Below are positions 12,517 through 34,264 of a stretch of DNA of 40,785 nt, piece by piece. The position numbers and the translations under genes were made by a program. The stretch covers positions 1 to 40,785 of the forward strand of contig CADAAM010000024.1 of NCBI GenBank assembly GCA_902785905.1. The letters run 5' to 3'. Under the pieces are notes generated by a model. The model did not search any database. It was given only the letters and a program-made list of their open reading frames with translations, and was not told the DNA's origin. The number at the start of each line of letters is the position of its first letter. Position 1 is the first letter of the stretch. The stretch is from Oscillospiraceae bacterium. GTDB lineage: Bacteria > Bacillota > Clostridia > Oscillospirales > Oscillospiraceae.

Positions 12517-12560
12517 TGTCGTTTTGCTCGTCCCTGGTGGGACAACCGCAAAACATGACA
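12517..12560. repeat. Structured 44-nt motif, copy 1
   Basis: TGTC (12517-12520) pairs with GACA (12557-12560). GTTTTGC (12521-12527) pairs with GCAAAAC (12548-12554). Linker TC leads to an inner hairpin GTCCC-tggt-GGGAC (12530-12543), followed by linker AACC and, after the 7-bp stem, a 2-nt bulge AT. Copy 2 at 34221-34264 has the same lengths and linkers with different stem sequences. The 493-bp gap 12375-12867 holds this motif, a palindrome at 12571-12600, a weaker GCCTGC/GCAGGC hairpin near 12640-12660 and two promoters, but no convincing gene. Confidence 0.7.
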
Positions 12561-12570
12561 ATATTGCTTC

Positions 12571-12600
12571 TGCTTCGGCGATTATTTAATCGCCGAAGCA
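12571..12600. repeat. Perfect 14-bp palindromic hairpin
   Basis: 12571-12584 and 12587-12600 are perfect reverse complements with a TT spacer. No T-run follows on either strand, so it is a poor terminator. It sits 10 bp after the 44-nt motif, repeating the pattern of hairpin clustering seen in other gaps of the window. Confidence 0.75.
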
Positions 12601-12774
12601 ATAAATACCGGACACACGGTGATCTGCGGGCGGCGGGCCTGCACGCCTCGGGCGCAGGCATGGAAACAGACACAAGATATGGAACGTAAATCAAGCCGCA
12701 GCGCAAGGACTTGTGCCGGAACATTTTTCGCAAAATCGCGCAGGAAAGAGTCAAATGATAACAAAAAGTTTCAC

Positions 12775-12803
12775 TTGCATTTTCAGAAAGGCCCTCATAT
12801 AAT
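12775..12803 (+). promoter_or_regulatory. Sigma-A promoter of the dcw operon
   Basis: TTGCAT (12775-12780), a 17-bp spacer and TATAAT (12798-12803), 64 bp before mraZ. The leader contains GTGGATGAAAGTGGGGCAAAATGGG-type GTGG repeats (about 12812-12836). MraZ of other bacteria binds direct GTGGG-type repeats ahead of its own gene, so autoregulation is likely. Confidence 0.8.
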
Positions 12804-12867
12804 AAAACTGGAGTGGATGAAAGTGGGGCAAAATGGGTCAAAAAACCACTAAGGGAGGGCGCCGGAC

Positions 12868-13284
12868 ATGACAGGGGAATACCAGCATTCTCTTGACAGC
12901 AAGGGAAGGCTGTTCATACCCGCCAAGCTCAGGGATGAGTTGGGCGAGGTCTTTTTTATCACGATTTCCATGGACCGCTGTCTCTGCGCCTACAGCGGCG
13001 AGAGCTGGAAGGGTCTGACCGAACGGGTCGACGCCATGCCCTTTGTCAAGCAGCGCAAGATGCGGCCTCTCTTTGCCCACGCCGCAAAATGCGAGCTGGA
13101 CGCCCAGGGCCGCATCCTGATCCCGCAGAACCTCCGGGACTACGCGGGCTTTACGAAGAACGTGACGGTCGTGGGCTGCAACAACCACGCCGAGCTCTGG
13201 GACAGCGAGGCCTGGCGCGCCGTCTTTGAACAGGAGACCACGCCGGAGAATATCGCGGCGGTGATGGAGGAGCTGGAATTTTGA
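12868..13284 (+). CDS. mraZ: Transcriptional regulator MraZ
   Basis: First gene of the dcw cluster and a DNA-binding protein of the AbrB/SpoVT fold that controls the cluster in other bacteria. It has the two tandem MraZ repeats, each with the DxxGR core: DSKGRLFIPAKLRDE (residues about 10-24) and DAQGRILIPQNLRDY (about 78-92). Its length (138 aa) is typical. A strong ribosome-binding site (AGGGAGGG) precedes the ATG. The stop codon overlaps the TTG start of rsmH, which implies translational coupling. GTGGATG and GTGGGGC repeats in the leader, close to the promoter, are good candidates for its binding box. Confidence 0.95.
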   Translation: MTGEYQHSLDSKGRLFIPAKLRDELGEVFFITISMDRCLCAYSGESWKGLTERVDAMPFVKQRKMRPLFAHAAKCELDAQGRILIPQNLRDYAGFTKNVTVVGCNNHAELWDSEAWRAVFEQETTPENIAAVMEELEF

Positions 13285-14214
13285 CGACGGATACGGATAA
13301 GCGGAGCGGGGCGCACATCTCCGTTTTGCTTCATGAGTGCATAGACAATCTGAACATCAGGCCGGACGGGATCTATCTCGACGGCACGCTCGGCATGGGC
13401 GGGCATTCCTTTGAGATCGCCTCCCGGCTCACCGAGGGGCGGCTCATCGGCATCGACCGGGACAGGACCGCCATCGAGAGGGCCGGAAGGCGTCTCGCGC
13501 CGTTCGGGGACAAAGTGACGCTGGTACACGGCAATTTCTCGGACGCCGCCGCCATCCTGGACAGCCTCGGCATCGAGGGCGTGGACGGGATGCTCTTCGC
13601 AGCTGGACGAGGCCGAGCGCGGCTTTTCCTATATGCTGGACGCCCCGCTGGACATGCGTATGGACGGCAGCGCCGCGCTGACCGCCGGGGAGATCGTCAA
13701 CACCTGGAGCGAGGATCGGCTCAACCGCATCCTCTGGGATTACGGGGAGGAGCGCTGCGCCAGGCGCATCACGGCGGCCATCCTGAAACGCCGGGCCGAG
13801 AGACCCATCGAGACCACGCAGGAGCTGGTGGACGTGATCCGCGCCGCCATGCCCGCCGCCGCGCTGAGAGAGAAGCAGCACCCGGCCAAGCGCACGTTCC
13901 AGGCCATCCGCATCGCGGTCAATGACGAGCTGGGCGCGGTCGCCTCCATGATGGACTCGGCCCCGGACAAGCTCAACAAAGGCGGCAGGCTCTGCGTCAT
14001 CAGCTTCCATTCCCTGGAGGACCGGATCGTCAAGTCCGGCATCCAGGCGCGGGAGCACGGCTGCACCTGTCCGCGCGAGGCCCCGATCTGCACCTGCGGC
14101 TTTGTGCAGACACTCAGATCCGTGACAAGAAAGCCCATCCTCCCCAGCGCGGAGGAACTGGAGCATAACCCGAGATCGAGAAGCGCCAAGCTCCGGGTGG
14201 CCGAGCGCGTATGA
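13281..14214 (+). pseudogene. rsmH: 16S rRNA (cytosine-1402-N4) methyltransferase RsmH, broken by an internal deletion
   Basis: RsmH methylates C1402 of 16S rRNA using S-adenosylmethionine. The frame opens at TTG 13281, overlapping mraZ, with GGAG upstream and HISVLLHE plus the SAM loop GTLGMGGHS. It runs correctly to VDGMLF (codon ending 13598). One base later the next reading frame resumes with QLDEAERGFSYMLDAPLDMRMD and continues to the normal C-terminus (FHSLEDRIVK, RSRSAKLRVAERV) at 14214. Comparison with the family shows that DLGVSSP is missing: about 20 bp are lost and the frame is shifted. The first frame ends at 13925 in unrelated sequence. As written, no functional RsmH can be made. 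The clean flanks point to a recent deletion or an assembly error. Confidence 0.9.
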
Positions 14215-14501
14215 GAAGGGACATCAGCCTGAGCGCCCTGCTCTTTCGTGTCGTGTGCGTCGTGTTTTCGGCGGTATTGCTGGTCATGGCCCTGTTCGCC
14301 CAGATCCGTACCGTCCGTACAGAGACGAGGATCGGGGAGCTTGAAAAGGCCCTCGCCGACGCGGAGAATGAAAGAATATTGCTGCAGATCAAAACAGACA
14401 GCGCGCTGAGCCTGGAAGAGCTCGAGCGCCGCGCCGTGACGGAACTCGGCATGCGGCGTCCCGAGCCGGGACAGCTGCGCGTGATCGACTATTTGGGATA
14501 A
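14211..14501 (+). CDS. ftsL: FtsL-like cell division protein
   Basis: A small bitopic protein in the position of ftsL, between rsmH and the penicillin-binding protein. It has a short cytoplasmic N-terminus, one membrane helix (about residues 9-31) and a heptad-containing extracytoplasmic coiled coil (about 33-65, ELEKALADAENERILLQI), ending with the AVTELGMRRPEPGQLRVI pattern typical of FtsL/DivIC proteins. In the divisome such proteins pair with FtsB/DivIC and FtsQ to activate FtsWI. The ATG overlaps the rsmH stop (ATGA). Sequence conservation in this family is low, so the call rests on position and architecture. Confidence 0.85.
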   Translation: MRRDISLSALLFRVVCVVFSAVLLVMALFAQIRTVRTETRIGELEKALADAENERILLQIKTDSALSLEELERRAVTELGMRRPEPGQLRVIDYLG

Positions 14502-14554
14502 AGAGTCGGCCTGCCGAATAAGCTGTGGATAAGCAGTTTCGTTCGGAGGCGTAT

Positions 14555-16864
14555 ATGACAAACCAAACGCAGAAAACGGCGTCTGTCTCACGGCAGATGC
14601 TGAGAAGGGGCGCGGTGCTTGCGGCGGTTTTCGGCGTGGGCGCCTTTGCCGTCTTACTGGCAAGGCTTTACAAGCTGCAGATCACGGACCATGCGTTTTA
14701 CGAAAACCTGGCCATCTCCCAGCAGCTGCGCGAGGCCCCCGGCACGGCGGCGCGCGGGCGGATCTATGACCGCAACGGGAACGTCCTCGCGGTCAGCGCC
14801 ACGGTGGACAACGTCTATCTGAGCCCCGCCGAGATCGAGGCCAACGGCGAGGACCGGGAATTGATCGCCCGGGGCCTTTCGGAAATCCTCGACCTCGACT
14901 ATGACGAGCTCTACGAAAAGACCGGGCGCAAGGGGAGCTGGTACGTGACCGCGGCGCGCAAGATCGAAGCCGACAAGGCCGCCGAGATCCGAAAATTCAA
15001 GACCGAAAACCACATCAGCGGCGTCCGCTTAGAGCCCGACACCAGGCGCTATTACCCCAACGGCCGCCTCGCCTGCCATCTGCTGGGCTTTGTCGGCACC
15101 GACAACTACGGGCTCGAGGGCATCGAGGCCCGCTATGACGACGCCCTCTCCGGCACGGCGGGCAGGAGCCTGCGCGCCACCAACGCCTACGGGGGCGAGA
15201 TGCTGCTGCGCCGCTATGAGGAGTACCGCCCCGGAGAAGACGGGCAGGACCTCTTTACCACCATCGACGCGAGCATACAGTACTATGTCGAAAAGCATCT
15301 GCGCCAGGCGGTGCTGGATTACGACGCGCTCAACGGAGCGGGGGCCATCGCCATGGACGTCAACACCGGGGCGATCCTCGCCATGGCGTCCCTGGGGGAC
15401 TACGACCCGAATCACTTCCTCGCGGTGAGTCCCGAGGCGCAGATCGCCGTAGACGCCGCCGCGACGAAGGAGGAGGCCGCCGCGCTGTTAGCCGGGGCCC
15501 AGGCCAGACAGTGGCGCAACAAGGCCCTGTCCGACACCTATGAGCCGGGCTCCACCTTCAAGATCATCACCCTCGCCATGGCCCTCGAGGAGGGCAAGAC
15601 CGGCCTCGGGGACAGCTTTTACTGCGGCGGCAGCACCACGGTGCCGGGGCGCACAAACCCCATCCGCTGCTGGAAGAGCGGCGGCCACGGCAGCCAGACC
15701 CTGACCCAGGCCGTGCAGCACTCCTGCAACGTCGCCTTCGTCAACATCGGCCAGCGCGTCGGGGCGGAGCGTTTTTACGACTACTGCGAGGCCTTCGGCT
15801 TTTTGAAGCTCTCGGACGACCCGGACGCAAACCTCACGGCCCGCACGGGCATCGACCTGTCGGGTGAGAGCGGGAGCATCTGGTGGAGCAGAAACACCTT
15901 TTGCTCGAAGAAAAACCTCTCGCAGCTCGCGGCGGCGTCCTTCGGCCAGACCTTTACCATCACGCCCCTCCAGCTTGTCACGGCGGTGAGCGCCTGCGTC
16001 AACGGCGGCAGACTCATGGAGCCCTATGTGGTGCAGCGCCTTGTCGAGCCCGACGGCAGCGTCAGCTTTGAGCATGAGCCGAAGCTCGTTCGCCGCGTCA
16101 TCAGCGAATCGACCAGCCGCAAGGTGAGGGAGATCCTGGAGCAGGTGGTGGGCGATCCCAACGACGGCACCGGCCGCAACGCCGCCGTCCCCGGCTACCG
16201 CATCGGCGGCAAGACCGGCACCAGCGAAAAGGTCAGCCTTGAGGCCCGGACCGGGCAAAAGGAGTACATCGTCTCCTTTATCGGCGTGGCCCCGGCGGAC
16301 GATCCGAAAATCGCCCTGCTGGTTTTTCTCGATACGCCCAGCGACAAGTCCGGCGTCTACGTCAGCGGCGGCCAGATGGCGGCCCCCGTGGTGGGGCGCA
16401 TGCTGGCCGACATCCTGCCCTACCTCGGCGTAGAGCCGACAGGCGCCGATAACGGCGGCGCGGTCATGCCCGCCTGTACCGGCCTCGATCTGCCGCAGGC
16501 CGCGGAAAAGCTCAAAGACGCGGGGCTGCGCTGCAGAACCATAGGCGGCGGCAGCGCCGTCACCGATCAGCTCCCGGCCGCGGGCACGGTCCTCGCGGAG
16601 GGGACGGAGGTCATCCTGTACTTTGACGCGGAGATTTCACCCGATCTGGAGAGCCTGCCGGAGCTCACGGGCTTAAACTACGAGCAGGCGCGCGACACGC
16701 TCTCCTATTACGGGCTCTATCTCACCACGCGCAGCAGCGTCACCGATCCGGCACGGCAGACCGTCGGCGCGCAGAGCCTCCCGGCGGGCACCGAGCTCCG
16801 CCACGGCAGCGTGGTCGAGGTCACGCTGATCGACAGCGATGAAGAGCTGCTGGGAAGATATTGA
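14555..16864 (+). CDS. Class B penicillin-binding protein (FtsI/SpoVD type) with two PASTA domains
   Basis: A DD-transpeptidase that cross-links peptidoglycan at the septum or, if SpoVD, in the spore cortex. I chose the ATG at 14555, with GGAGG 5 bp upstream, over an in-frame GTG at 14525. After a membrane helix (about residues 17-36) comes the PBP dimerisation domain (RGRIYDRNGNVLA onward). The transpeptidase domain has the three active-site motifs: STFK (serine nucleophile), SCN and KTGTS. Two PASTA modules end the protein (from about PACTGLDLPQAA and LPELTGLNYEQA). Two PASTA domains fit PBP2B/FtsI as well as SpoVD relatives, so I leave the symbol open. It probably acts with the FtsW encoded downstream. 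Confidence 0.92.
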   Translation: MTNQTQKTASVSRQMLRRGAVLAAVFGVGAFAVLLARLYKLQITDHAFYENLAISQQLREAPGTAARGRIYDRNGNVLAVSATVDNVYLSPAEIEANGEDRELIARGLSEILDLDYDELYEKTGRKGSWYVTAARKIEADKAAEIRKFKTENHISGVRLEPDTRRYYPNGRLACHLLGFVGTDNYGLEGIEARYDDALSGTAGRSLRATNAYGGEMLLRRYEEYRPGEDGQDLFTTIDASIQYYVEKHLRQAVLDYDALNGAGAIAMDVNTGAILAMASLGDYDPNHFLAVSPEAQIAVDAAATKEEAAALLAGAQARQWRNKALSDTYEPGSTFKIITLAMALEEGKTGLGDSFYCGGSTTVPGRTNPIRCWKSGGHGSQTLTQAVQHSCNVAFVNIGQRVGAERFYDYCEAFGFLKLSDDPDANLTARTGIDLSGESGSIWWSRNTFCSKKNLSQLAAASFGQTFTITPLQLVTAVSACVNGGRLMEPYVVQRLVEPDGSVSFEHEPKLVRRVISESTSRKVREILEQVVGDPNDGTGRNAAVPGYRIGGKTGTSEKVSLEARTGQKEYIVSFIGVAPADDPKIALLVFLDTPSDKSGVYVSGGQMAAPVVGRMLADILPYLGVEPTGADNGGAVMPACTGLDLPQAAEKLKDAGLRCRTIGGGSAVTDQLPAAGTVLAEGTEVILYFDAEISPDLESLPELTGLNYEQARDTLSYYGLYLTTRSSVTDPARQTVGAQSLPAGTELRHGSVVEVTLIDSDEELLGRY

Positions 16865-16954
16865 GAGCCTTGCGCAGCGGATGTAAGATCACTAATTCTT
16901 GCAATTGCCTGTGCGGTTTCCGCTCACAGGCTTTACCCTGCGCCTTGCGCCCCC

Positions 16955-17099
16955 CATTCTTTCTTTTCGTCTTGCCGAAAAGAAAGAATGCGCCGCGCCC
17001 GGGATTCCGGGCCGCCGCTGCCGGCGGCAGAGGAAGGCGGCCCGGAATCTCTGCAGCCGCGCCATTGGCGGGCCGTCGCGAAGCAGGCCCGCCAATGGC
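16955..17099. repeat. Three successive long hairpins between the PBP gene and murE
   Basis: The 416-bp gap 16865-17280 carries no convincing gene. It holds a 15-bp perfect hairpin (16955-16969 with 16976-16990), a 14-bp perfect stem (17003-17016 with 17036-17049) containing a nested CTGCC/GGCAG hairpin, and a 14-bp perfect stem (17061-17074 with 17086-17099). A smaller CCTGTG/CACAGG stem precedes them near 16910-16931. None is followed by a good T-run. The murE ribosome-binding site (TTTGGAGG) is at the right-hand end of the gap; I see no clear promoter. Confidence 0.85.
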
Positions 17100-17280
17100 A
17101 TTGCGGCAAGGCGGGGTAAGAAAGAAAAGGGCGCTTCCAAGTGGTATACGGTCCTGCGCCACGCCGTCCGCGGAGGGCTTCGCTTACGCTCGCGCCGCTG
17201 CCTGGTCAGACAGGTAAGTTTTTTGCTGCGATGTGACAATAATTGTGTGAGATTGATTAACCCTTTGGAGGAACAGAGAC

Positions 17281-18738
17281 ATGAAGCTGTCAGAGCTTTT
17301 GAAGCATATCGAGGTGTTGGAGGCGACGGCCGATCCCGCGCTCGAGATCACGGGGATCAGCTACGACTCCCGCAAGACGAAGCCGGGCGAGCTCTTCGTC
17401 GCCGTCAAGGGCTTCGAGACCGACGGACACAAATACATCCCCAAGGCCGCGGCAAACGGCGCGGCGGCGGTCCTGTGCGAGGACGCGCCGACCGACGGGA
17501 CGCCCTATGTAAAAATCCGCGACTGCCGCCTCGGCCTCGCCCTGGTCAGCCGCGAGTTCTACGGCAACCCGGCGGGGGAGATGAAGCTCATCGGCTTTAC
17601 CGGCACCAGCGGCAAGACCAGCTCCACCCACATCATGAAGCATGTGCTGGAAACGATGGCGGGGGCGAAGGTCGGCCTCATCGGCACCAACGGCAACATG
17701 ATCGGCGAGCGCGTCCTCCACACCGAGCACACCACGCCCGAGAGCCTGGAGCTGCATCAGCTCTTTCGCCGGATGAGGGACGAGGGCTGCACCCATGTGG
17801 TGATGGAGGTCTCCTCCCACTCCCTGACCCTTGAGCGTGTCGCGGGCATCGACTTTGACGTCGCGGTGTTCACCAATCTCTCGCAGGACCATCTGGATCT
17901 GCACGGGACGATGGAGGCCTACGCCGCCGCCAAGAAGAAGCTCTTCTCCCAGTGCGGGATCGGCTGCATCAACATCGACGACGAGCGCGGGGCGTACATG
18001 ATGGAGGGCGCGGCCTGTCCCTTCCTGCGCTACACGGCCCGGGGCAGAGACGCCGAGCTTCTTGCCGAAGACGCGCGCTCCACGGCGGACGGAGTGAGCT
18101 TTACGGCCCGATACGGCGGGGAGAGCGCGCAGACGAAGCTCGCCATCCCCGGCCTCTTCTCGGTCTACAACGCCCTGAGCGTGCTGGCGGCCTGTCTCGC
18201 CCTCGGCATGAGCCTGAGTGACGCAGCCGCCGGGATCAGCAGTGCGGCCGGCGTCAAGGGGCGCATGGAGTCCGTGCCGACGGACGGGGACTACAGCGTC
18301 ATTATCGACTACTCCCACAAGCCGGACGCGCTGGAAAAGGCCCTCAGGGCCCTGCGCCCGGTGACGCGCGGACGCCTCATCGTCCTCTTCGGCTGCGGCG
18401 GCGACCGCGACCGCCTGAAACGCCCCATCATGGGCAGAATCGCAGCCGAGAACGCGGATCTTGTGATCGTCACCAGCGACAATCCCCGAACCGAGGACCC
18501 CATGGACATTATAAACGAGATCCTTCCCGGGGTCGAAAGCGGGCATACGCCGTACAAAATGATCTGCGACAGAATCGACGCGATACGCTGGGCTATTGAC
18601 AACGCCGCCCCCGGTGATGTAATATTGCTTGCCGGCAAAGGCCACGAGGATTACCAGGTCATCGGCCATGAGAAGCATCACATGGACGAGCGGGAGATCG
18701 TGGCGGGCTGGCTGAAAGAGAGAAAAGAGAGGCCTTGA
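17281..18738 (+). CDS. murE: UDP-MurNAc-L-Ala-D-Glu:meso-diaminopimelate ligase MurE
   Basis: A cytoplasmic Mur ligase adding the third residue of the peptidoglycan stem peptide with ATP. It has the N-terminal UDP-binding domain (ITGISYDSRKTKPGELFVA), the ATP loop GTSGKT near residue 108, the TTPE motif and the C-terminal ligase domain. The motif DNPRTEDP near residue 400 is the diaminopimelate-selective DNPR sequence, so the cell wall should contain meso-diaminopimelate. The length (485 aa) is normal. TTTGGAGG precedes the ATG. mraY follows after 24 bp, where murF would normally stand. Confidence 0.95.
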   Translation: MKLSELLKHIEVLEATADPALEITGISYDSRKTKPGELFVAVKGFETDGHKYIPKAAANGAAAVLCEDAPTDGTPYVKIRDCRLGLALVSREFYGNPAGEMKLIGFTGTSGKTSSTHIMKHVLETMAGAKVGLIGTNGNMIGERVLHTEHTTPESLELHQLFRRMRDEGCTHVVMEVSSHSLTLERVAGIDFDVAVFTNLSQDHLDLHGTMEAYAAAKKKLFSQCGIGCINIDDERGAYMMEGAACPFLRYTARGRDAELLAEDARSTADGVSFTARYGGESAQTKLAIPGLFSVYNALSVLAACLALGMSLSDAAAGISSAAGVKGRMESVPTDGDYSVIIDYSHKPDALEKALRALRPVTRGRLIVLFGCGGDRDRLKRPIMGRIAAENADLVIVTSDNPRTEDPMDIINEILPGVESGHTPYKMICDRIDAIRWAIDNAAPGDVILLAGKGHEDYQVIGHEKHHMDEREIVAGWLKERKERP

Positions 18739-18762
18739 GCCTCTGACAATACGGAGCAATAT

Positions 18763-19788
18763 ATGACGATTAAGCTGATAACCGCATTCGTGCTGGCGTT
18801 TCTGTTTGCAAGCGCTTTCGGAAAATACTATGTCCCCTGGCTCAGACAGCAGAAGGCCGGACAGCAGATCAAGAGCGAGGTGGAGTGGCACAGGCTCAAG
18901 GCGGGCACGCCCACCATGGGCGGCGCGATGTTCATTTTCGGGGCGATCCTCGTATGTCTCACGGTCGGGGCCGACGGGATGCTGCACGGCCGCTTCGAAC
19001 ATATCTTCGTCCTGCTTTTTGCCTGCGTCTTCGGCCTGATCGGCTTTCTGGACGACTGGGAAAAGCTCAAGAAAAAGGAGAACATGGGCCTGAGCTCCCG
19101 CAGCAAGTTCCTGCTGCAGCTGGCCGCGGCGCTGGTCTTCATCCTGCTCATGCGGCAGATCGGCTTTGTGCGCCCGCAGCTCTATGTGCCCTTCTTCCAG
19201 AAGACCCTCTACATGCCCGAGTGGCTGTATTTTGTCTTCGCCGCCTTCGTCATCGTCGGCACGGTCAACGCCGTCAACATCACCGACGGGGTAGACGGTC
19301 TTGCCAGCGGCACCTCACTGCCGGTGTTCCTGTTCTTCGTCGCGGTCTCCGTCGCCTGGGGCAGACGCTATCAGGAGCTCGGCATCTTCGCCTCGGCGAT
19401 GGTCGGGGGCCTGTGCGGCTTTTTGATCTATAACTTCAACCCCGCCAAGTGCTTCATGGGCGACACGGGCTCGCTCTTTCTCGGCGGCGCGATCGCGGCC
19501 CTGGCCTTCGCCTACGACATGCCGCTGATCCTCATCACCCTGGGCCTCGTCTTCATCGTCGAAACCCTGTCCGATATTCTCCAGGTCGGCTATTTTAAGC
19601 TCACAAAGAAGCTGTATGGCCAGGGCAGGCGCATCTTTAAGATGGCGCCCTTCCACCACCATCTGGAGATGGGCGGCTGGACGGGCAAAAAGTGGAAGGA
19701 AAAACAGCTCTTTTTCCTCTTCACAGGAATATCTCTCGCCATGGCGATCATATCCTTTATAGGGGTGTATCAGCGTTACCCCTATTAA
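18763..19788 (+). CDS. mraY: Phospho-MurNAc-pentapeptide transferase MraY
   Basis: A polytopic membrane enzyme that moves phospho-MurNAc-pentapeptide from UDP to undecaprenyl phosphate, giving lipid I. It has about ten hydrophobic segments and the family motifs in order: GTPTMGG (about residue 47), the DDWEKLKKKENMGL loop with catalytic Asp pair, NITDGVDGLASG, and FHHHLEMGGW near residue 300. The length (341 aa) is typical. It is transcribed with murE upstream and ftsW 31 bp downstream. The substrate requires MurF and MurD, which are not encoded nearby. Confidence 0.95.
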   Translation: MTIKLITAFVLAFLFASAFGKYYVPWLRQQKAGQQIKSEVEWHRLKAGTPTMGGAMFIFGAILVCLTVGADGMLHGRFEHIFVLLFACVFGLIGFLDDWEKLKKKENMGLSSRSKFLLQLAAALVFILLMRQIGFVRPQLYVPFFQKTLYMPEWLYFVFAAFVIVGTVNAVNITDGVDGLASGTSLPVFLFFVAVSVAWGRRYQELGIFASAMVGGLCGFLIYNFNPAKCFMGDTGSLFLGGAIAALAFAYDMPLILITLGLVFIVETLSDILQVGYFKLTKKLYGQGRRIFKMAPFHHHLEMGGWTGKKWKEKQLFFLFTGISLAMAIISFIGVYQRYPY

Positions 19789-19819
19789 GCGCCGTTTGAA
19801 AGGCCGGGGAGGTGGGAAT

Positions 19820-21064
19820 TTGCGTTACGACAGCGCCCGCCTCGCCGGCCTTCCCGACGCTGAGACAAACGCGCGCAGGCCCGTGTTCGACGGGCCCTTC
19901 TTTGTGTTGAGCATGCTTCTGCTCCTCGCCGGAGTGCTCATGGTCTTATCCGCGAGCTACCCGCGCGCCTGGTACGATCCCGGCCACGTGACCGGGGGCA
20001 ACGCCGCCTATTACTTTGTGCGCCAGCTCGTCTTCGCGCTGCTGGGCGTGGCGGCCATGCTGATCGCCTCGCGCGTCCCGATGGGGCTTTATCGCCGCTG
20101 GGCCTTTCCCTTCCTCGCGCTGACCCTGGTGCTGCTGATGCTGGTGCCGCTCGTCGGCGTGAAGGCCAACGGCTCTCGCCGCTGGCTCGGCGTCGGGGGC
20201 CTGACCCTGCAGCCGTCGGAGCTTGCCAAGCTCGCGGTGATCCTGTCCTTCTCGGCGCTGATCTGCCGCTATCGGGGAAAGATGCGTTCCATCCGTTACG
20301 GCATTCTGCCCTTCGCGGGCATTTTGGGCGCGATCATCGGCCTGCTGGTGCTCGAGCCGCACTTCTCCGCCTCGGTCATCATCCTCGCCATCGGGGCGGT
20401 GATGCTCTTTCTCGGCGGCGTCCGGCTGTTCTGGTTTGCCGGGGCCTTCGGGGCGGCGGGCGCGGGCATCGCGGTGCTGCTGACCTTCTTCCCCTACGCC
20501 TCGTCGCGCATCAACTCCTGGCGCGATCCCTTCTCCGACAGCTCCGACCAGGGCTACCAGATCGTCCAGTCCCTGTACACCATCGGCTCGGGCGGCCTGA
20601 GCGGGCTCGGCCTCGGCGGCAGCCGCCAGAAATTTCTGTATCTGCCCGAGGAGCACAACGACTTTATCTTCTCCATCGTCTGCGAGGAGCTGGGCTACAT
20701 CGGCGCGGCGCTCATCCTCTGCCTCTTTGCCCTGCTGATCCTGCGGGGCTACTGGATCGCCTTCCACTGCCGGGACCGCTTCAGCTTCCTGGTCGTGGGC
20801 GGGGTGACGAGCCTGCTCGCCATCCAGGTCTTCCTGAACGTCGCCGTGGTGACGAATCTCGTCCCCTGCACCGGCATTTCGCTGCCCATGTTCAGCTACG
20901 GCGGCACGGCGCTGCTGATCCAGCTCTTCGAGCTCGGGATCGTGCTGAGCGCGTCCAGGGATATACCGGTACAGCACTCGCCTTGCGTGAGACGGCTCGT
21001 TTGGTCGAAGCGAGACCTCGCACAGCTCGGTTCAGGGTGTTTTTCAGGCGGCATAGCTGCCTGA
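19820..21064 (+). CDS. ftsW: FtsW/SEDS peptidoglycan glycosyltransferase
   Basis: A SEDS-family membrane polymerase that builds septal glycan strands with its partner PBP. It has about ten membrane helices and the family signatures KANGSRRWLGVG, LQPSELAKLA, LEPHFSASV, SDSSDQGYQIVQSL, EEHNDFIFSIVCEELG and the C-terminal MFSYGGTALLIQL. I chose the TTG at 19820 because GGGGAGG lies 6-7 bp upstream; another TTG at 19796 has no such site. The protein should end soon after SASRDIPVQ. Instead the frame runs on for about 29 residues through two palindromic segments, with its stop codon inside the hairpin at 21039-21069. That tail is atypical and probably an acquired extension. Confidence 0.93.
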   Translation: MRYDSARLAGLPDAETNARRPVFDGPFFVLSMLLLLAGVLMVLSASYPRAWYDPGHVTGGNAAYYFVRQLVFALLGVAAMLIASRVPMGLYRRWAFPFLALTLVLLMLVPLVGVKANGSRRWLGVGGLTLQPSELAKLAVILSFSALICRYRGKMRSIRYGILPFAGILGAIIGLLVLEPHFSASVIILAIGAVMLFLGGVRLFWFAGAFGAAGAGIAVLLTFFPYASSRINSWRDPFSDSSDQGYQIVQSLYTIGSGGLSGLGLGGSRQKFLYLPEEHNDFIFSIVCEELGYIGAALILCLFALLILRGYWIAFHCRDRFSFLVVGGVTSLLAIQVFLNVAVVTNLVPCTGISLPMFSYGGTALLIQLFELGIVLSASRDIPVQHSPCVRRLVWSKRDLAQLGSGCFSGGIAA

Positions 21065-25810: not shown

Positions 25811-25839
25811 GCGGTTTCGATACCCTCCTTCCTCCTTAT

Positions 25840-25876: not shown

Positions 25877-25940
25877 TAAAAGAAGCCATCAGACTGCAGA
25901 CAAACCCTTGCAAACCAAGTCGGTCTTGTAAGGGGGATCT

Positions 25941-26018
25941 GTGAAGGGGGACGGGGGAGTCCCCCTTCACGTACAATCCATGCAAAAATGGGAACTTTTT
26001 CGGAAGTTCCCATTTTTG
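25941..26018. repeat. Dispersed hairpin repeat, copy 2, with preceding hairpin
   Basis: 25971-25997 is identical to 10007-10033. The hairpin arms here are 15 bp (25983-25997 with 26004-26018). An 11-bp hairpin, GTGAAGGGGGA with its complement (25941-25951 with 25960-25970), lies directly before it. Copy 1 has a weaker related segment at the same place. Confidence 0.85.
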
Positions 26019-26021
26019 GCT

Positions 26022-26241: not shown

Positions 26242-26247
26242 ACAGTA

Positions 26248-27237
26248 TTATCGATTTTTCATATACCTCGCCGCCTCGCCGGCGGTTTTGACCAGATAGC
26301 GCATCGCCTCCACGGGGTAGTCGCCGACGGCGGTCTCGCCGGTGAGCATGACGGAGCTTGCCCCGTCGAGGACGGCGTTGAAGACGTCGCTGACCTCCGC
26401 GCGGGTGGGGACGGCGGCGTGCTCCATGCTGGCGAGCATCTGCGTCACCACCATGAAGGCCCGGCCCTTTTCCCGGCATTTTGCGGCAATTTCCTTCTGG
26501 ACACGCGGCAGCTCCCAGAGCGGCACGGCGTTGCCCAGATCGCCGCGGGCGATGACGATCTCGTCACACGCAGCGATCAGCTCGTCCAGATTCCGGACGC
26601 CCTCGCGGTTTTCGATCTTGGCGAAGAGGCGGATCTCCCGGCCGCACGTCCTGTCCAGCGCCGCGCGCACGGCCTCGAGGTCGGCGCGGTCGCGCACGAA
26701 GGGCTGCATCACGCCGGTCACGCCGTAGTCCTTTGCCATGGAGATATTGGCAAGGTCGGCCTCGGTCATCGTGGGAGGGCGCAGTCCGGCACCGGGGATC
26801 GCAAGACTCTTGCGCCCGGTGAGCGTGCCGCCGCGTATCACGTCGGCCCTGGCGGATGAACCGTCCGCCGCCGAGACCTCGAGAAGCAGTTTCCCGTCAT
26901 CCAGCAGAAGCTGTGCGCCGGGGACGAGACAGGGGAGAGCGATCACCGGGATCGGGATGCCGCCCGCGCCCAGCGTCACGCTCTCGCCCTCGCGGAGCGG
27001 GAGGGGATGCGCAAGGGCCCCGATGCGAAGCTCGGGACCCTGCATGTCGATGAGAAGCCGCGCTTTCACGCCGCATTGAGCGGCGGCTTCGTGCAGGGCC
27101 TCTGTTTCCTTCGCCGCCTCGGGCAGCGTGATGTGGGAGAGATTCAGACGCATGCCGGTCATCCCGGCGTCCAGCATGGCGCGCAGCGTCGTGACGTCGG
27201 CGCAGCGCGGGCCGAGCGTCCCGTAAAAATCAAGCAT
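26248..27237 (-). CDS. Short pyruvate-kinase-like enzyme lacking the C-terminal domain
   Basis: Contains the A and B domains of pyruvate kinase. Motifs are TLGPRC, RLNLSH (phosphate/K+ site), LIDMQGPELRIG, AKIENREG (catalytic Lys and metal-binding Glu), VIARGDLGN, TQMLASM and PTRAEVSDVFNAVLDGASSVMLTGETAVGDYPVEAM. At about 330 residues it stops where the allosteric C-terminal domain of the usual 470-residue enzyme begins. The frame ends cleanly, so this is a short form rather than obvious decay. I prefer the ATG at 27237, where AAGGATG lies 6 bp upstream; the ATG at 27246 has AAGG abutting it. Either start overlaps or abuts the upstream cyclase gene, so the two are translationally linked. It may be a dedicated, non-allosteric or repurposed enzyme; the cell probably has a full-length one elsewhere. 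Confidence 0.85.
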   Translation of the reverse strand: MLDFYGTLGPRCADVTTLRAMLDAGMTGMRLNLSHITLPEAAKETEALHEAAAQCGVKARLLIDMQGPELRIGALAHPLPLREGESVTLGAGGIPIPVIALPCLVPGAQLLLDDGKLLLEVSAADGSSARADVIRGGTLTGRKSLAIPGAGLRPPTMTEADLANISMAKDYGVTGVMQPFVRDRADLEAVRAALDRTCGREIRLFAKIENREGVRNLDELIAACDEIVIARGDLGNAVPLWELPRVQKEIAAKCREKGRAFMVVTQMLASMEHAAVPTRAEVSDVFNAVLDGASSVMLTGETAVGDYPVEAMRYLVKTAGEAARYMKNR

Positions 27238-27248
27238 ATCCGACATCC

Positions 27249-28325
27249 TTAAAAAACCATTTGATTGCGCCCGTTGGCCTTGCCGCGGTAGAGCTTTCGG
27301 TCAGCGCTCTCGAGCAGATCCGCAAGAGGGGAGCGGTAGTCGTTCTCCTCCACGCCGGCAGTGATGGTGATGGAGAAACGGTGATCCTCATATTCAATCT
27401 GCATCTTCCGCACGGCAATAAGCAGATCCGTCATAATGCGGCTCGCGTCGTCGATATTCACGCCGGGAAAGAAGAAGCAGAACTCCTCACCGCCCCAGCG
27501 GCTGACAAAGTAGCCCTCCTTGGAGTGTTCCGTAAACAGCGCGGCAAGCTGCTGAAGTACATGATCCCCGCAGTTGTGGCCGTAGGTGTCGTTGACGCGC
27601 TTAAAGAAGTCGATGTCCGCGATGGCGACACAGTACATGGCCTCGGGATTGTCGCTGACATAGCGGGTCATCACGTCCATGAAGCCGCGGCGGTTGATGA
27701 GCTTGGTCAGCGGGTCGGTCTCAGCCTGAATCTGCAGCTGCTCATTGTGCAGCAGGAGCTGCCGGGCGGTTTCCTGCAGATTGCTGCTGTAGACAATGCA
27801 GCAGCAGGCCAGCATCAAAAACGCTGAGATCGTGTTGACCGTCTGCATTAAAAACAACGAAAAGCTGTCAACAGAGATGAGCGGGGCGTGGACGGAAGTG
27901 TACTGATAGAGAAAAATGCGCAGGGTCAGGATCATCAAAAAGTACACGATTTTAAAAGCCGGGGGCTCATACAGGCAGAAAAAGACCAGCACAACGAGGA
28001 CAATCAGCGTATGCTGCCCGCCGATGCCCCAGCCGAAGCAGATGACGTACCAGCATGTCCAGGCGCAGATAATCAGGGAAATCAGCAGGAGGTTGAAGCG
28101 GGCGGTGAGCTGATTGACCTGGAATATTTTGAACAGCAAAACGCCGAAAATGACCAGAGGAATCCAGAAAAACTGCTTTGAAGACCAGAAAACGAGCAGA
28201 ATAGACAGCAAAAAATAGACGCCGAGCATCCGATCCGCGAGGATTACAGACTGTCGGTAGTAAAACAATGTTTCTTTTGTGTTTTTCGGCACTATCTGCC
28301 GGAAAAAGTCAGAAAACAGTTTCAT
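27249..28325 (-). CDS. Membrane-bound GGDEF diguanylate cyclase
   Basis: Predicted to synthesise cyclic di-GMP. The N-terminal half (about residues 35-185) consists of six or so hydrophobic helices without a recognisable periplasmic sensor domain, so it may sense a membrane or small-molecule signal directly. A short coiled coil (NLQETARQLLLHNEQLQIQAE) leads to the GGDEF domain: DPLTKLINRRGF, ADIDFFKRVNDTYGHNCGD and the active motif RWGGEEF. The RxxD inhibitory site is missing (KEGY at that place). It is the first gene of a two-gene minus-strand unit whose second member is the pyruvate-kinase-like gene. No clear promoter is visible in the AT-rich region upstream. Confidence 0.92.
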   Translation of the reverse strand: MKLFSDFFRQIVPKNTKETLFYYRQSVILADRMLGVYFLLSILLVFWSSKQFFWIPLVIFGVLLFKIFQVNQLTARFNLLLISLIICAWTCWYVICFGWGIGGQHTLIVLVVLVFFCLYEPPAFKIVYFLMILTLRIFLYQYTSVHAPLISVDSFSLFLMQTVNTISAFLMLACCCIVYSSNLQETARQLLLHNEQLQIQAETDPLTKLINRRGFMDVMTRYVSDNPEAMYCVAIADIDFFKRVNDTYGHNCGDHVLQQLAALFTEHSKEGYFVSRWGGEEFCFFFPGVNIDDASRIMTDLLIAVRKMQIEYEDHRFSITITAGVEENDYRSPLADLLESADRKLYRGKANGRNQMVF

Positions 28326-28474
28326 TTATCTCACCGCAACACGCAATACAATAAAATGAAAACCAACACACCCGCAAAAAAGACCGAATGTCCCGCTCAT
28401 CATAATTGCTTATTACATAATACAAAATTCCGTATGATAAAACAATAGGTTTTTAAATTATTTTTAAAGAAAAT

Positions 28475-28500
28475 CGGGACCCGCCGGACGGCGGGTCCCG
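28475..28500 (-). terminator. pckA terminator
   Basis: 11-bp perfect GC-rich stem (28475-28485 with 28490-28500) with a GGAC loop, 24 bp after the pckA stop. The minus strand then reads ATTTTCTTT. The rest of the gap 28326-28474 is AT-rich and featureless apart from the start region of the cyclase gene. Confidence 0.88.
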
Positions 28501-28523
28501 AAAAAGGGTCCTTGTGTTTGAGA

Positions 28524-30111
<1,588 letters not shown>

Positions 30112-30266
30112 ATTGCATCAATCCTCTTTCTTATAATAAATAGGGGTCTCGCACGATGTGTTAAAAATACCACATCCGCGGGACTCCGTCAAGCGTCACA
30201 GTATACAAATCCGCCTGGGTGCATGGGCGTTTCCGGCGGAAAAACCGTGCTTCGTGCACAATCCGT

Positions 30267-30295
30267 TTGACGCAGCGGGCCGATGGTGATAGAGT
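30267..30295 (+). promoter_or_regulatory. Possible promoter of the MATE gene
   Basis: TTGACG (30267-30272), a 17-bp spacer and TAGAGT (30290-30295), in the 215-bp divergent gap between pckA and the exporter. The -10 is a 4/6 match. Confidence 0.45.
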
Positions 30296-30326
30296 ACAAG
30301 GCAGCAAGGAAAGGGGGGCGGACGCG

Positions 30327-31739
30327 ATGGAGCAGACAAACGCCAAATATTTCCGCATGACGACGGAGCCAATCCCGAAGCTGATCTGCACGCTCGCCGT
30401 GCCGACGATCGTGTCGATGCTGGTGACGGCGCTTTACAACATCGCGGACACCTTCTTCGTCGGCCGTCTCGGCACCGAGGCGACGGCCGGCGTCGGGCTG
30501 GTGTTTCCGATCATGGCGGTGATCCAGGCCTTCGGCTTCTTCTTCGGCCAGGGCTCGGGCAACTTCATCTCCCGCTCCCTCGGAGCGAGGCGGGCGGACG
30601 AGGCCGAGTATATGGCCTCCACGGGCGGGTTCTGCGCGCTGCTCTTCGGCGGGCTGCTGACGCTGTTCGGCCTGCTCTTTCGCGGGGCGGTGCTGTATGT
30701 CCTCGGCGCGCGGGAGGGTCTCGTCGCGCCGGGGACGGTGAGCTATGCCTCGGACTACCTGACCGTGATCCTCTGCGGCGCGCCGTTTATGTGCCTGTCG
30801 TGCGTACTGAATAACCAGCTGAGATTCCAGGGCAACGCCTTTTTCGCCATGATCGGCCTTGTGTCCGGGGCAGTGCTGAACGTGGCGCTGGACCCGGTGT
30901 TCATCTTCGGCTTCAGGCTCGAGGTGACGGGCGCGGCCCTCGCCACCGCGGTGAGCCAGAGTGTGAGCTGCGTGCTCCTGTACATCGGGACGCTGCGCAG
31001 CGACAGTCTCAAGCTGCGCGCCCGCAACTTCCGGCCCACGCCGTTTTACCTCAAAAACATCGCCGTCGGCGGCACGCCCTCGCTTTTCCGCCAGGGGCTT
31101 GCCAGCCTCGCGACGCTGTGCCTGAACGCGGCGGCGGGGGCGTCGGTGGCCGCCGGGCAGTCGGACGCGGCGATCGCGGCCTTCTCGGTGGTGAACAAGA
31201 TCATGATGTTCGCCTTCTCGGCCCTTCTCGGCTTCGGACAGGCGTTCCAGCCGGTGTGCGGCTTCAACTGGGGCGCGGGGCGCTATGACCGGGTGCGCCG
31301 GGCGTACATGTTCTGTCTCAAGGTGGGCTTTGCGTTTCTGGCGGCGGCGTCCTGCCTGGGCTATCTCTTCGCGCCGCGCCTTGTGGCCCTGTTCCGGGAC
31401 GACCCCGCGGTCATTGAGTTCGGCACGGTGGCCATGCGCTGCCAGTGCTGCACGTTTACGCTGATGGCGCTGGTGACGATCACCAACATGCTGTATCAGA
31501 ACATCGGGCGCGTGGTCGGGGCGACGCTGCTCGCGGTGGCGCGGCAGGGACTGATGTTCATCCCGGCGGCGCTGATCCTGCCGCGGGTGATAAGCCCGCC
31601 GATCTGGGGCGTGTACCTCGCCCAGCCGACGGCGGACCTCTTCGCGTTTACGCTGGCGCTCATCCTCGCCCTGCGCATGTACAGGGAGCTGAAGAGAAGG
31701 GAAGAGGGAGTCCTGTCAAAGTCAAAAGAAAACTGTTGA
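30327..31739 (+). CDS. MATE-family efflux transporter
   Basis: A 12-helix membrane antiporter that exports drugs or metabolites using Na+ or H+. Family features are PKLICTLAVPTIVSMLVTALYNIADTFFVGRLG at the N-terminus (the usual first two helices), AFGFFFGQGSGNFISRSLG, and in the second half the repeat GFGQAFQPVCGFNWGAGRYDRVR. I chose the ATG at 30327 because AAGGAAAGGGGGG precedes it; the frame is open further upstream but without homologous sequence. The length (470 aa) is typical. The substrate is unknown. The -35 of the next gene overlaps the end of this one. Confidence 0.93.
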   Translation: MEQTNAKYFRMTTEPIPKLICTLAVPTIVSMLVTALYNIADTFFVGRLGTEATAGVGLVFPIMAVIQAFGFFFGQGSGNFISRSLGARRADEAEYMASTGGFCALLFGGLLTLFGLLFRGAVLYVLGAREGLVAPGTVSYASDYLTVILCGAPFMCLSCVLNNQLRFQGNAFFAMIGLVSGAVLNVALDPVFIFGFRLEVTGAALATAVSQSVSCVLLYIGTLRSDSLKLRARNFRPTPFYLKNIAVGGTPSLFRQGLASLATLCLNAAAGASVAAGQSDAAIAAFSVVNKIMMFAFSALLGFGQAFQPVCGFNWGAGRYDRVRRAYMFCLKVGFAFLAAASCLGYLFAPRLVALFRDDPAVIEFGTVAMRCQCCTFTLMALVTITNMLYQNIGRVVGATLLAVARQGLMFIPAALILPRVISPPIWGVYLAQPTADLFAFTLALILALRMYRELKRREEGVLSKSKENC

Positions 31740-31764
31740 TTTTGTGGTAACGGCACCGTATAAT
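31736..31764 (+). promoter_or_regulatory. Sigma-A promoter of the VanW gene
   Basis: TTGATT (31736-31741) overlaps the MATE stop codon; a 17-bp spacer and TATAAT (31759-31764) follow. It drives the vanW-dut pair. Confidence 0.8.
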
Positions 31765-31826
31765 ACAACATATTGACACCATAAACCGTACCCGGCGGCA
31801 CACCGTCCGGGGAGGAGGATATCCGT

Positions 31827-33437
31827 ATGAAGAAATTTTTCGCCTGGCTCGGCGCTTTCCTGGTCTATCTGCTCGCGGTGGCGATGATCATCGGCGTGGC
31901 CGGCATGTTCGCCGGCTACTACCTCTCCAACAGCAAGGAGAATCTCCGCGGCGTGTATATCGGGGACGTCGACGTGAGCGGCATGACGCGGGAGGAGACC
32001 GAGAGCCTTCTGGAAAGCCGCGGCTGGAAAACCGCCGAGAGCACGCCTCTGGTCGTGACCACGCTCAGAGACCAGGGCTTTGAGGTCGACCCGATCCGCG
32101 CCGGGGCCGCCGTCCCGGTGGAGACGCTGGTGGAGGAGGCCTACGCCGTCGGCCATGACGCCGACATGATCTCCAACCTCATCACTGCCGTCGACGTCTT
32201 TATGAGCCCCGTCGACGTCAACCGAACCGAGCGGGAGATCGACACGAACTATATCGACGGCCTCATCGCCGACTGCATCGACCGCATTCAGAGCGGTCTC
32301 GGCGAGGACGGCTACACCGTGGACACCAAGGCATCCCAGCTGAAAATGGTCAAGGGCGGCAGCAGCCTCGACTTCAACCGCGAGGACTTCCGCAGCGCCG
32401 TCATCCAGGCGCTTAAGGAGGGGCGGAGCGAGCTGAGCTACACCCGCATCACCACCCAGCCCGTCGAGCCCGACTTCGAGGCCATCCATACCGAGCTCTG
32501 GAAGGAGCCCTCCGACGCCTGCTACTCCGACGACGGCCGCTTCAACGTGATCGACGAGGTCGTGGGCTGCGAGTTCGACGTGCGCGGGGCCAAACAGCTC
32601 TGGGAGCAGGCCCGGCCCGGCGACGAGGTGATCATCCCGCTGACCATCTCCCGCCCCAACGTCACCGGCGATACCCTCCGGGAGCTGCTGTTCCGCGATC
32701 TGCTGGGCGCGTGCCTGACCAAGTTCCCGAACTCCGGCGCAAACCGCCGCAGCAACCTCCAGCTCTGCGCGTCCAAGATCGACGAGTACATCGTCTACCC
32801 AGGCGAGACCTTCTCGTATAACGAGGTCGTCGGCCAGCGCACCGAGGAGGCCGGCTTCCTGCCCGCCCCCGCCTACGTTGACGGCGCGGAGAAAGACGAG
32901 ATCGGCGGCGGCGCCTGCCAGATCTCCAGCACGCTCTACGCCGCCACCGCCTTCGCCTTCCTCGAGACCGTGGAGCGTTCCAGCCACATGTTCAAGGTCA
33001 GCTACATGCAGCGCGGCACCGACGCCACCGTCACCATCCCCGCCGAGGGCAAGGTCATCGACTTCAAGTTCCGCAACAACAAGCTCTTCCCGGTCAAGAT
33101 CAAGACCTACTTCAACAACGACGAGAGCACCATCAGCGTCGAAATCTGGGGCACGCTCCAGCCCAACGACTACATGCCCGTCGAGTTTGACAATACCTCC
33201 GGCTGGGAGCACGACTATGATCGCGTTATCGAGCCCGCCTACCCCGACCGCCCGGGCTACAAGATCAAGTTCCAGGTCGAGATGTGGGGCTTTGAGGACG
33301 ACTTCTCCACCGGCTACCGCACGCTGACGCATCGGCTCGTCATCGACCAGGACGGCAACACCGTGGACGATCAGATCCTCAACCCGCTGCTGCCCTCCGG
33401 CGGCCCGGCGCTGGATACGTACTATCAGCATCCATAG
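31827..33437 (+). CDS. VanW family protein with N-terminal PG-binding-type domains
   Basis: A membrane-anchored extracytoplasmic protein. One N-terminal helix (about residues 6-31) is followed by a region starting VYIGDVDVSGMTREE, typical of PG_binding_4 domains that accompany VanW and L,D-transpeptidase modules (about 40-290). The VanW domain follows: NRRSNLQLCASKID, VYPGETFSYNEVVGQRT, GFLPAPAYV and GGGACQISSTLYAA (about 300-430). A beta-rich tail ends it. VanW occurs in some vancomycin-resistance clusters, but its biochemical role is not established and most copies, like this one, lie outside such clusters. GGAGGAGG precedes the ATG. dut follows after 9 bp and is probably co-transcribed. 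Confidence 0.9.
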   Translation: MKKFFAWLGAFLVYLLAVAMIIGVAGMFAGYYLSNSKENLRGVYIGDVDVSGMTREETESLLESRGWKTAESTPLVVTTLRDQGFEVDPIRAGAAVPVETLVEEAYAVGHDADMISNLITAVDVFMSPVDVNRTEREIDTNYIDGLIADCIDRIQSGLGEDGYTVDTKASQLKMVKGGSSLDFNREDFRSAVIQALKEGRSELSYTRITTQPVEPDFEAIHTELWKEPSDACYSDDGRFNVIDEVVGCEFDVRGAKQLWEQARPGDEVIIPLTISRPNVTGDTLRELLFRDLLGACLTKFPNSGANRRSNLQLCASKIDEYIVYPGETFSYNEVVGQRTEEAGFLPAPAYVDGAEKDEIGGGACQISSTLYAATAFAFLETVERSSHMFKVSYMQRGTDATVTIPAEGKVIDFKFRNNKLFPVKIKTYFNNDESTISVEIWGTLQPNDYMPVEFDNTSGWEHDYDRVIEPAYPDRPGYKIKFQVEMWGFEDDFSTGYRTLTHRLVIDQDGNTVDDQILNPLLPSGGPALDTYYQHP

Positions 33438-33446
33438 GGAGGAGCC

Positions 33447-33935
33447 ATGTATAAAATCCGCTTCGCCAAAATCAGAGAGGGCGCGGTGATCCCCTCCAGA
33501 CGGGAGGAGGACTCCGACTATGACCTCTACGCCTGCTTCGAGGAGGAGGAGTTCGTCATCCCGCCCTTCTCCACGCGCCTTGTGCCGACGGGGCTCATCA
33601 GCGCGTTCGACAAAAACCTCGGCGTCAGGTTCGAGGAGCGGGGGAGCAACACCAAGTGGTGCGGCATCATCCAGGCCGGGGTCATCGACAGCGGCTACCG
33701 GGGCGAGTGGGTCTGCGCCGTGTATAACGGCAACCCCGTCCCCGTGCATATCACGAAGGCGGCCGACGAGGTCAGACACCTCGGGGACCGGGTGCTGGTG
33801 CCGTACAAAAAGGCGATCTGCCAGTTCCATGTGAGAGAGATCCTGCCGACGGAAATCGAAGAGGCGAGTCCCGACGCGGTGCTCGCCGTCAGCTCCGAGA
33901 GGGGCGCGGGCAGGCTCGGCAGCAGCGGAAAATAA
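33447..33935 (+). CDS. dut: Deoxyuridine triphosphatase
   Basis: Trimeric dUTPase that hydrolyses dUTP to dUMP, keeping uracil out of DNA and supplying thymidylate synthesis. All five family motifs are recognisable: DSDYDLYA (motif 1), EERGSN (2), GVIDSGYRGE (3), KKAICQFHV (4) and RGAGRLGSSGK (5). Motifs 1 and 5 deviate slightly from DAGYDL and RGxGGFGSTG. The length (162 aa) is normal. GGGAGGAGCC precedes the ATG. The gene is the second of a pair with VanW, an association that is probably incidental. A palindrome-rich element starts 6 bp after its stop. Confidence 0.92.
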   Translation: MYKIRFAKIREGAVIPSRREEDSDYDLYACFEEEEFVIPPFSTRLVPTGLISAFDKNLGVRFEERGSNTKWCGIIQAGVIDSGYRGEWVCAVYNGNPVPVHITKAADEVRHLGDRVLVPYKKAICQFHVREILPTEIEEASPDAVLAVSSERGAGRLGSSGK

Positions 33936-34019
33936 CAAATCTGTCATCAAGGGCAAAGCGAAGGATCTTTCTTCGGAGTCTTGCTATAAAAGCTGAGGCC
34001 TTTATAATGATTATCGCAT

Positions 34020-34098
34020 GGAGAAAACGATCGAATTTTCGATCGTTTTCTCCGCCAAACGACACGTTTGGCGGAGAATGATTCTTTGAATCATTCTC
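34020..34098. repeat. Three chained hairpins sharing arms
   Basis: A 16-bp stem (34020-34035 with 34038-34053), a 14-bp stem (34048-34061 with 34065-34078) and an 11-bp stem (34074-34084 with 34088-34098). Each hairpin uses the last bases of the previous one (TTCTCC, then GAGAA), so neighbours compete for the same bases. Confidence 0.85.
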
Positions 34099-34112
34099 GC
34101 GATGCTCATTGC

Positions 34113-34205
34113 AATGAATATCTGGCGCCGCATCCATATTGCGGCGCTGAGCAGCAATGCTGCTCGGCGGAACGCCTTGCGGCGTTTCGCCATCAGATAT
34201 TCATT
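34113..34205. repeat. Cloverleaf-like four-way palindrome
   Basis: A 12-bp closing stem (34113-34124 with 34194-34205) encloses three hairpins: GCGCCGC/GCGGCGC (34125-34147), GAGCAGCA/TGCTGCTC (34149-34165) and an 11-bp stem with one G-T pair (34166-34176 with 34181-34191). It is not a tRNA: no T-loop or anticodon pattern. The left arm also forms the palindrome TCATTGCAATGA (34106-34117). Confidence 0.8.
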
Positions 34206-34220
34206 ATAGTATTTTTGACT

Positions 34221-34264
34221 GTGCGAAATCCTCGCCGCTCACGCGGCAACCGGATTTCACGCAC
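34221..34264. repeat. Structured 44-nt motif, copy 2
   Basis: GTGC (34221-34224) pairs with GCAC (34261-34264). GAAATCC (34225-34231) pairs with GGATTTC (34252-34258). Linker TC, inner hairpin GCCGC-tcac-GCGGC (34234-34247), linker AACC, and 2-nt bulge AC. Same geometry as 12517-12560 with compensatory changes in all three stems. Confidence 0.75.

Follow-up and report, generated by a model that had tools for sequence, protein, structure and literature searches.

A dispersed non-coding three-hairpin element with a covarying core in Oscillospiraceae and related Clostridia

Integron attC sites are recognized as folded single strands that contain extrahelical bases and whose stems are free in sequence. 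The group 2 repetitive extragenic palindromes (REPs) of the REP/TnpA_REP system have an irregular bulge in the stem, which is required in the Escherichia coli REP (PMC8266576, in the part consulted). In the hairpin of the BPP-1 diversity-generating retroelement (DGR), stem structure matters and stem sequence does not, as reported in the consulted part of PMC3240598. Here we describe an element detected through two 44-nt units in a 40,785-nt stretch of DNA from an Oscillospiraceae bacterium (contig CADAAM010000024.1; this whole stretch is called the window below). Both units correspond to the conserved core of a longer non-coding element (about 110–150 nt), and this core displays fold-keeping covariation without a preference for the + strand. 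On balance, we favor a non-autonomous element whose folded DNA strand is recognized by an enzyme acting in trans.

The element would be recognized in a similar way to attC sites, but it has no gene cassettes; an integrase was not looked for. Like group 2 REPs, it is small, intergenic and present in high copy number, with an irregular zone in the hairpin stem and stems that vary between families, but it lacks a GTAG tag and a linked transposase, comprises three hairpins where REPs are single or paired, nearly lacks G.T pairs and bears promoter boxes in its most widespread type. With the IS200/IS605 insertion sequences and their palindromic derivatives, it shares the absence of inverted terminal repeats, hairpins near both ends and, for two of its subfamilies (types A and I), the lack of a clear target duplication; it contains no tnpA, however, and its conserved hairpin is the central one, flanked by variable outer hairpins. 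The RUP, NEMIS and ERIC repeats, which resemble miniature inverted-repeat transposable elements, are also non-coding, mobile and intergenic and can add promoters or RNA structure, whereas the element described here has no shared terminal repeats and conserves structure instead of sequence across genera (comparison with the consulted part of PMC2229807). The DGR target hairpin is similar in that stem structure matters, stem sequence does not and the loop is conserved, but it lies behind the variable region (VR), whereas our element is distributed genome-wide without a reverse transcriptase (PMC3240598, same part).

A preliminary description of this DNA had reported the two units at positions 12517–12560 (unit 1) and 34221–34264 (unit 2), and both the coordinates and the geometry were confirmed. 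Each unit, read on the + strand, folds as a 4-bp outer stem, a 2-nt bulge (AT in unit 1 and AC in unit 2), a 7-bp middle stem, an internal loop formed by the linkers TC and AACC, and a 5-bp upper stem closed by a 4-nt loop. Exactly nine of the 16 pairs differ between the units when counted by eye on a pairwise alignment (three outer, four middle and two upper), matching the approximate figure given earlier; all nine are still Watson–Crick pairs and the linkers are identical. Scanning the window on both strands, we found 16 of 16 pairs only at the two units, which were also the only ones to combine TC with AACC among the matches listed (at least 13 pairs). Sixty dinucleotide shuffles of the window yielded a mean of 0.5 matches at 15 pairs and none at 16, and RNA folding compared with shuffles gave z-scores of −3.5 and −5.0 for the units on the + strand and −4.2 and −4.5 on the − strand. 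The check proposed in the preliminary description, a covariance model built from the two sequences, recovered 55 copies in the organism's own 2.73-Mb genome, so that the proposal of a conserved structure stood. The pattern CTCG-N12-CAACCG occurs 36 times in this genome and once when read backwards, and a second covariance model, derived from 112 aligned copies, matches only the two units in the window. The lack of 16-pair matches in shuffles and the 36 occurrences against one for the reversed pattern argue against a chance origin, whereas the paired changes in the stems argue against plain duplication; with the constant linkers, they support the view that structure has been selected.

To quantify covariation, we used the alignment of 112 copies taken from 100 hand-picked loci, which was fitted to the model and is therefore biased towards structure. 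Across the 105 distinct copies, 95.5% of cells are paired and 11 of the 16 pairs are doubly changed, a count matched in 36 of 500 shuffles; the covariation score is 0.621, compared with 0.136 in shuffles and at most 0.106 with partners slid. The 36 further pair types observed in the 112-copy alignment are not above the shuffles (36.4). There are 37 different perfectly paired 7-bp stems. The two TC positions are conserved in 102 and 104 of the 105 copies, the four AACC positions in 105, 97, 97 and 105, the bulge A in 97, the bulge T in 94 and the first loop base T in 98. Free stems combined with a fixed loop and bulge are what recognition of a folded strand predicts, by analogy with the E. coli REP bulge and the BPP-1 DGR hairpin as described in the parts of those papers cited above: paired stem bases would change together, whereas the TC/AACC loop, AT bulge and closing pairs would be held constant.

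If an RNA from the + strand were selected, G.U pairs should be tolerated and exceed A.C mismatches, which is not observed. Among the 2076 stem cells of 173 distinct cores, gathered by a rule that treats G.T and A.C alike, 2002 are Watson–Crick, 11 are G.T and 23 are A.C (p 0.058 for the difference between the last two). The tRNA acceptor stems of the same loci, a small control of 15 genes, contain five G.T and one A.C in 105 pairs (Fisher p 0.0007), and frequent GT pairing is described for GTAG repeats in the consulted part of PMC3733652. The constraint, or a process that keeps the two arms matched, seems to operate at the level of DNA and not of a + strand RNA. The small structured RNA envisaged in the preliminary description is thus not supported in its + strand version, as G.U is nearly absent and not above A.C, and as no Rfam family was found: a search of the window and 13 loci with Rfam 15 detected no family at gathering score and four matches below threshold. 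One sub-threshold match, to alpha_tmRNA (25.7 versus 50 bits), lies over a phage core at positions 1205–1377 of locus L269.

Almost exclusive Watson–Crick pairing would also be expected if no enzyme were involved and the arms were equalized by template switching at palindromes, with copies spread by short-repeat recombination. The outer-hairpin repeats at both ends and the variation of array length between genomes agree with such a process, but it leaves unexplained why the internal loop and bulge hardly vary across many genera and how new sites came to be occupied, and we consider it very improbable.

The preliminary description had overlooked the three-hairpin element around the core and the promoter link of its widest subfamily. 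From left to right, the element consists of a left hairpin, an AT-rich linker, the core hairpin, a short AT-rich linker and a right hairpin, and it contains no gene. The AT-rich linker carries TGATT in 53 of 191 copies, compared with one for the reversed motif and eight for its reverse complement. A perfect stem of at least 12 bp is present within 60 nt upstream of the core in 61 of 193 copies, whereas 193 shuffled stretches all remained at 8 bp or below; a stem of this length also occurs within 80 nt behind the core in 80 of 193 copies, a count made with no shuffle comparison. DNA folding returned three separate hairpins for unit 2 (after removal of an insertion) and for one Anaerotruncus colihominis unit. 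Of three intact type I copies, two gave this result and the third folded differently. The phage copies of one group are devoid of outer hairpins.

We defined subfamilies A, I, B, C, D and others by their stems and outer hairpins. Types A and I are numerous in the genus of the window, type C is the widest subfamily and carries TATAAT in its outer hairpins, and type D was found only before rnhA (six copies at four loci). Type D copies (L016, L093, L094 and L225) duplicate the first rnhA codons, generating a short reading frame before rnhA, and L093 and L225 hold them in tandem. The right hairpin loop of types A and I (for example L019 and L089) contains the reverse complement of the left hairpin's arm over ~8–11 nt, as judged by eye, making an alternative fold possible. 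Another hairpin repeat interrupts the linker of a type B element in L049, which is intact in L195, and another lies inside a core in L204. The flanks of the element repeat the apparent T-arm end of a tRNA in L370 and L373, and a core is found between a T-box-like GGGTGGTACCGCG leader and pheS in L172 (both by eye).

Cores are carried by 19 of 37 genomes of the genus, the organism's own included, with 0 to 54 copies, and by none of the 23 genomes from other families sampled alongside them. Using the later covariance model, we found them in 34 of the 295 genomes surveyed from the order, spanning 21 of 149 genera and nine families, and in 6 of 291 genomes of the class; as 21 candidates were scored per genome in these two surveys, copy numbers are lower bounds. 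Three of the six class-level carriers belong to one family outside the order, in which the upper stem is longer, the loop bases are the same and the flanks are of type C. Carrier records, which cover the 80 of 117 loci searched, include A. colihominis, an Oscillibacter metagenome-assembled genome (MAG), Candidatus Anaerofilum, Enterenecus and Avoscillospira. The complete genome of the cultured A. colihominis DSM 17241 has 43 exact matches to the type C left hairpin, six of which are spaced 109 nt apart; in this species, the type C arrays at L138 and L150 lie next to large multi-branched palindromes (TGTGGTATAATATGCGCAG...CTGCGCATGTTACACCACA). A search of plasmids and phages with an A. colihominis unit retrieved one plasmid, from the same species, and one phage record without annotation. 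We found nothing naming this element in the open-access literature searched, subscription papers, preprints and supplements being outside the scope of that search; an earlier unnamed model of it may exist, for instance among the 3161 candidates of PMC8040213, a source consulted in part.

The copies are mostly intergenic, multi-copy, patchy, nested and tandem-repeated, and are present or absent between orthologous sites. Unit 1 precedes mraZ (12868–13284, + strand, Pfam MraZ match), its first downstream gene and the start of the dcw cluster, and no core is present at this site in the five relatives read. The unit 2 site lacks a core in four relatives and holds a reversed one in a fifth. Twice in the organism's own genome, the left hairpin loop of a type B element is occupied by a type A element at GTGCCAATTTA/TCTTGAATC, where six other type B copies continue without it. 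Tandem arrays of six units occur, and two A. colihominis genomes differ by the presence or absence of ~0.49 kb of array at one locus, judging from coordinates. The preliminary description had also suggested a protein-bound DNA hairpin or a transposition signal, and this idea holds in its broad form since the copies behave as mobile DNA.

In one phage group, a core flanked on both sides by CAAAAC lies between two genes that are separated by a 23-nt spacer in FP_Brigit. The CAAAAC repeats resemble a target duplication and would fit a miniature DDE transposon with the core stems as terminal inverted repeats. A DDE enzyme would nevertheless be expected to bind terminal repeats of conserved sequence, in conflict with the 37 different stems, and we regard this origin as highly improbable. 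In type A, no target duplication was seen by eye. We give still less credence to the core being a hairpin that belongs to DGRs. Two unrelated phage groups do have a core between DGR genes, either between the reverse transcriptase and a Hoc-like gene or between the variable-region gene and an Avd-like gene (calls made by eye and from the FP_Brigit annotation). FP_Brigit and FP_Toutatis, however, have the same gene order with gaps of 23 nt and 19 nt and no core, the organism's own genome has no RVT_1 match, and the described DGR hairpin has a GRNA loop and lies 4–34 bp behind the VR (PMC3240598, as above). The DGR-phage loci are L269, L239, L245 and L246 for one set and L247, L248, L249 and L272 for the other; L247 and L248 differ in their variable region. 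A reverse transcriptase was also rejected as a general mobilizer, with RVT_1 in 19 of 61 genus genomes and none in the organism's own.

The preliminary description further pointed to an IS200/IS605 or REP type, which would imply a derivative moved by a Y1 (RAYT-like) transposase. The similarity in shape stands, as the core is close to group 2 REPs with a bulged stem (PMC8266576, in the part consulted). Within the genus, cores also occur in 10 of the 11 genomes that have weak RAYT-like matches, compared with 9 of 26 others, and at one locus a core follows the right-end hairpin of a truncated IS200 tnpA remnant. For ends shared with IS200/IS605, this truncated tnpA is all that was observed, and no search for end pairs was made. 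On the other side, GTAG occurs within 20 nt of the core in only two of 191 cases (CTAC in five; CGTC or GACG within 12 nt in two). The organism's own genome (G000), with 55 copies, has a single Y1 match, a remnant, and no Y1 or RAYT-like match was found in the 21-copy G035 or the 7-copy G018, MAGs being incomplete. Among the 25 Y1 loci searched, only one has a core, ~4 kb away; GTAGGG-type repeats were seen by eye at the RAYT-like gene in nine of 17 of these loci (L321–L337). By the tests made, the element is not a REP, as both the GTAG tag and the linked RAYT gene fail, and a Y1-mobilized derivative is an unlikely explanation. No recurring transposase was found among the neighbors within 3 kb of cores; by eye, the clusters present at four or more loci comprised ABC-transporter and two-component-like proteins or represented the orthologous rnhA locus, and a recurrent neighbor gene was accordingly rejected.

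Type C is tied to working promoters. In 15 of the 48 type C-like copies measured (50 were present among 294 candidates), a −35-like box with five or six matches out of six lies 16–18 nt before the left TATAAT-like box, compared with 11 of 889 random upstream positions and none of 28 right TATAAT boxes, and the TG of an extended −10 is present in 35 of the 48. Gene orientation was determined with a home-made codon-model gene caller. In a first collection, the next gene is in the same orientation in 15 cases and opposite in none for type C, whereas the corresponding counts are 22 and 17 for type A and 6 and 7 for type I. Over all types, the 147 candidates of this collection, a few of which probably match by chance, in unrelated bacteria or viruses, comprise 93 same, 36 opposite, nine with no called gene and nine inside a called gene; some are the same locus from two records or close genomes (L093/L105, L094, L225; L099/L183; L049/L195; L087/L211; L089/L216). 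A motif rule applied to 40 stretches, whose genomes had all been selected for carrying type C, recognized a second set of 27 type C runs, the remaining stretches not being oriented; the next called gene is co-directional in 25 of 26 runs. The −35 boxes and gene orientation of type C, set against the lack of bias in types A and I, lead us to conclude that type C is promoter-tied, whereas the insertions of A and I appear to be neutral and intergenic. The genes downstream are mixed and housekeeping-like by eye (70 and 24 rows), which argues against a single regulated pathway.

These data bear on a further alternative, in which the promoter-linked type is a cis-acting leader, that is, a 5′ untranslated structure (RNA, or a cruciform over the −10) that tunes the next gene, mobility being secondary. 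The orientation of type C, its genuine −35 boxes, the restriction of type D to rnhA and a phage copy located 24 nt before a start codon all agree with it. The orientation counts of types A and I do not, nor do the rarity of G.U and the mixed downstream genes; moreover, the type C left arm covers the −10 and is upstream of the RNA start expected from promoter geometry. We regard the leader as a possible, although doubtful, primary function.

Our preferred interpretation remains a non-autonomous element whose core would be read as a folded single DNA strand by a trans-supplied enzyme. The TATAAT-bearing type may target the −10 of promoters in use, perhaps where transcription initiation has melted the DNA; the old −35 and the copied −10 would still constitute a promoter, and the insertion would be tolerated before housekeeping genes. 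The fuller proposal of a new class of mobile DNA, with a folded-strand signal, insertion at a melted −10 that is copied, and leader cassettes spread through the housekeeping genes of gut Clostridia, is speculative.

Several observations weigh against this interpretation. No mobilizing enzyme was found, the search having left out tyrosine and serine recombinases, and the uneven distribution of weak RAYT-like matches between genomes with and without cores could point to a Y1 enzyme. The evidence for mobility consists of differences between sequences, movement itself not having been observed; only one of the five relatives read at the mraZ site shares the upstream neighbor gene, and types A and I have no target duplication visible by eye. 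A. colihominis has two core variants, one of which departs from the TC/AACC linkers, the excess of A.C over G.T is also compatible with an RNA from the − strand, and the strong gene orientation of type C also fits a regulatory role.

Within the window, unit 1 has a good right hairpin (12562–12603, no strand assigned; two inverted repeats and a DNA fold) and a degenerate left hairpin weakly suggested by DNA folding at 12473–12502 (no strand), followed by an AT-rich linker with TGATT at 12503–12516 (+ strand; sequence and linker statistics). Unit 2 is of type I. The first part of its left hairpin (33984–34006, no strand; sequence and fold) is interrupted by a separate palindrome array at 34007–34208 (no strand), a repeat of about 205 nt that recurs across the genus, is inserted into the left hairpin and is not part of the element, as indicated by repeat matches in the genus and by the fold of the joined flanks; it accounts for most of the matches listed in the genus for the stretch around unit 2. 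The last bases of the left hairpin and the linker occupy 34209–34220 (+ strand; sequence and fold), and the core is followed by a short linker and the right hairpin (34265–34328, no strand), whose arms at 34270–34279 and 34314–34323 form an inverted repeat supported by folding and by copies matched elsewhere.

If our interpretation is right, the promoter regions of common gut bacteria, including the cultured A. colihominis, would hold dozens of copies of a structured mobile element. There would then be a new enzyme to find, and these bacteria would offer a natural system for the recognition of folded single-stranded DNA and for tandem palindromes behind promoters.

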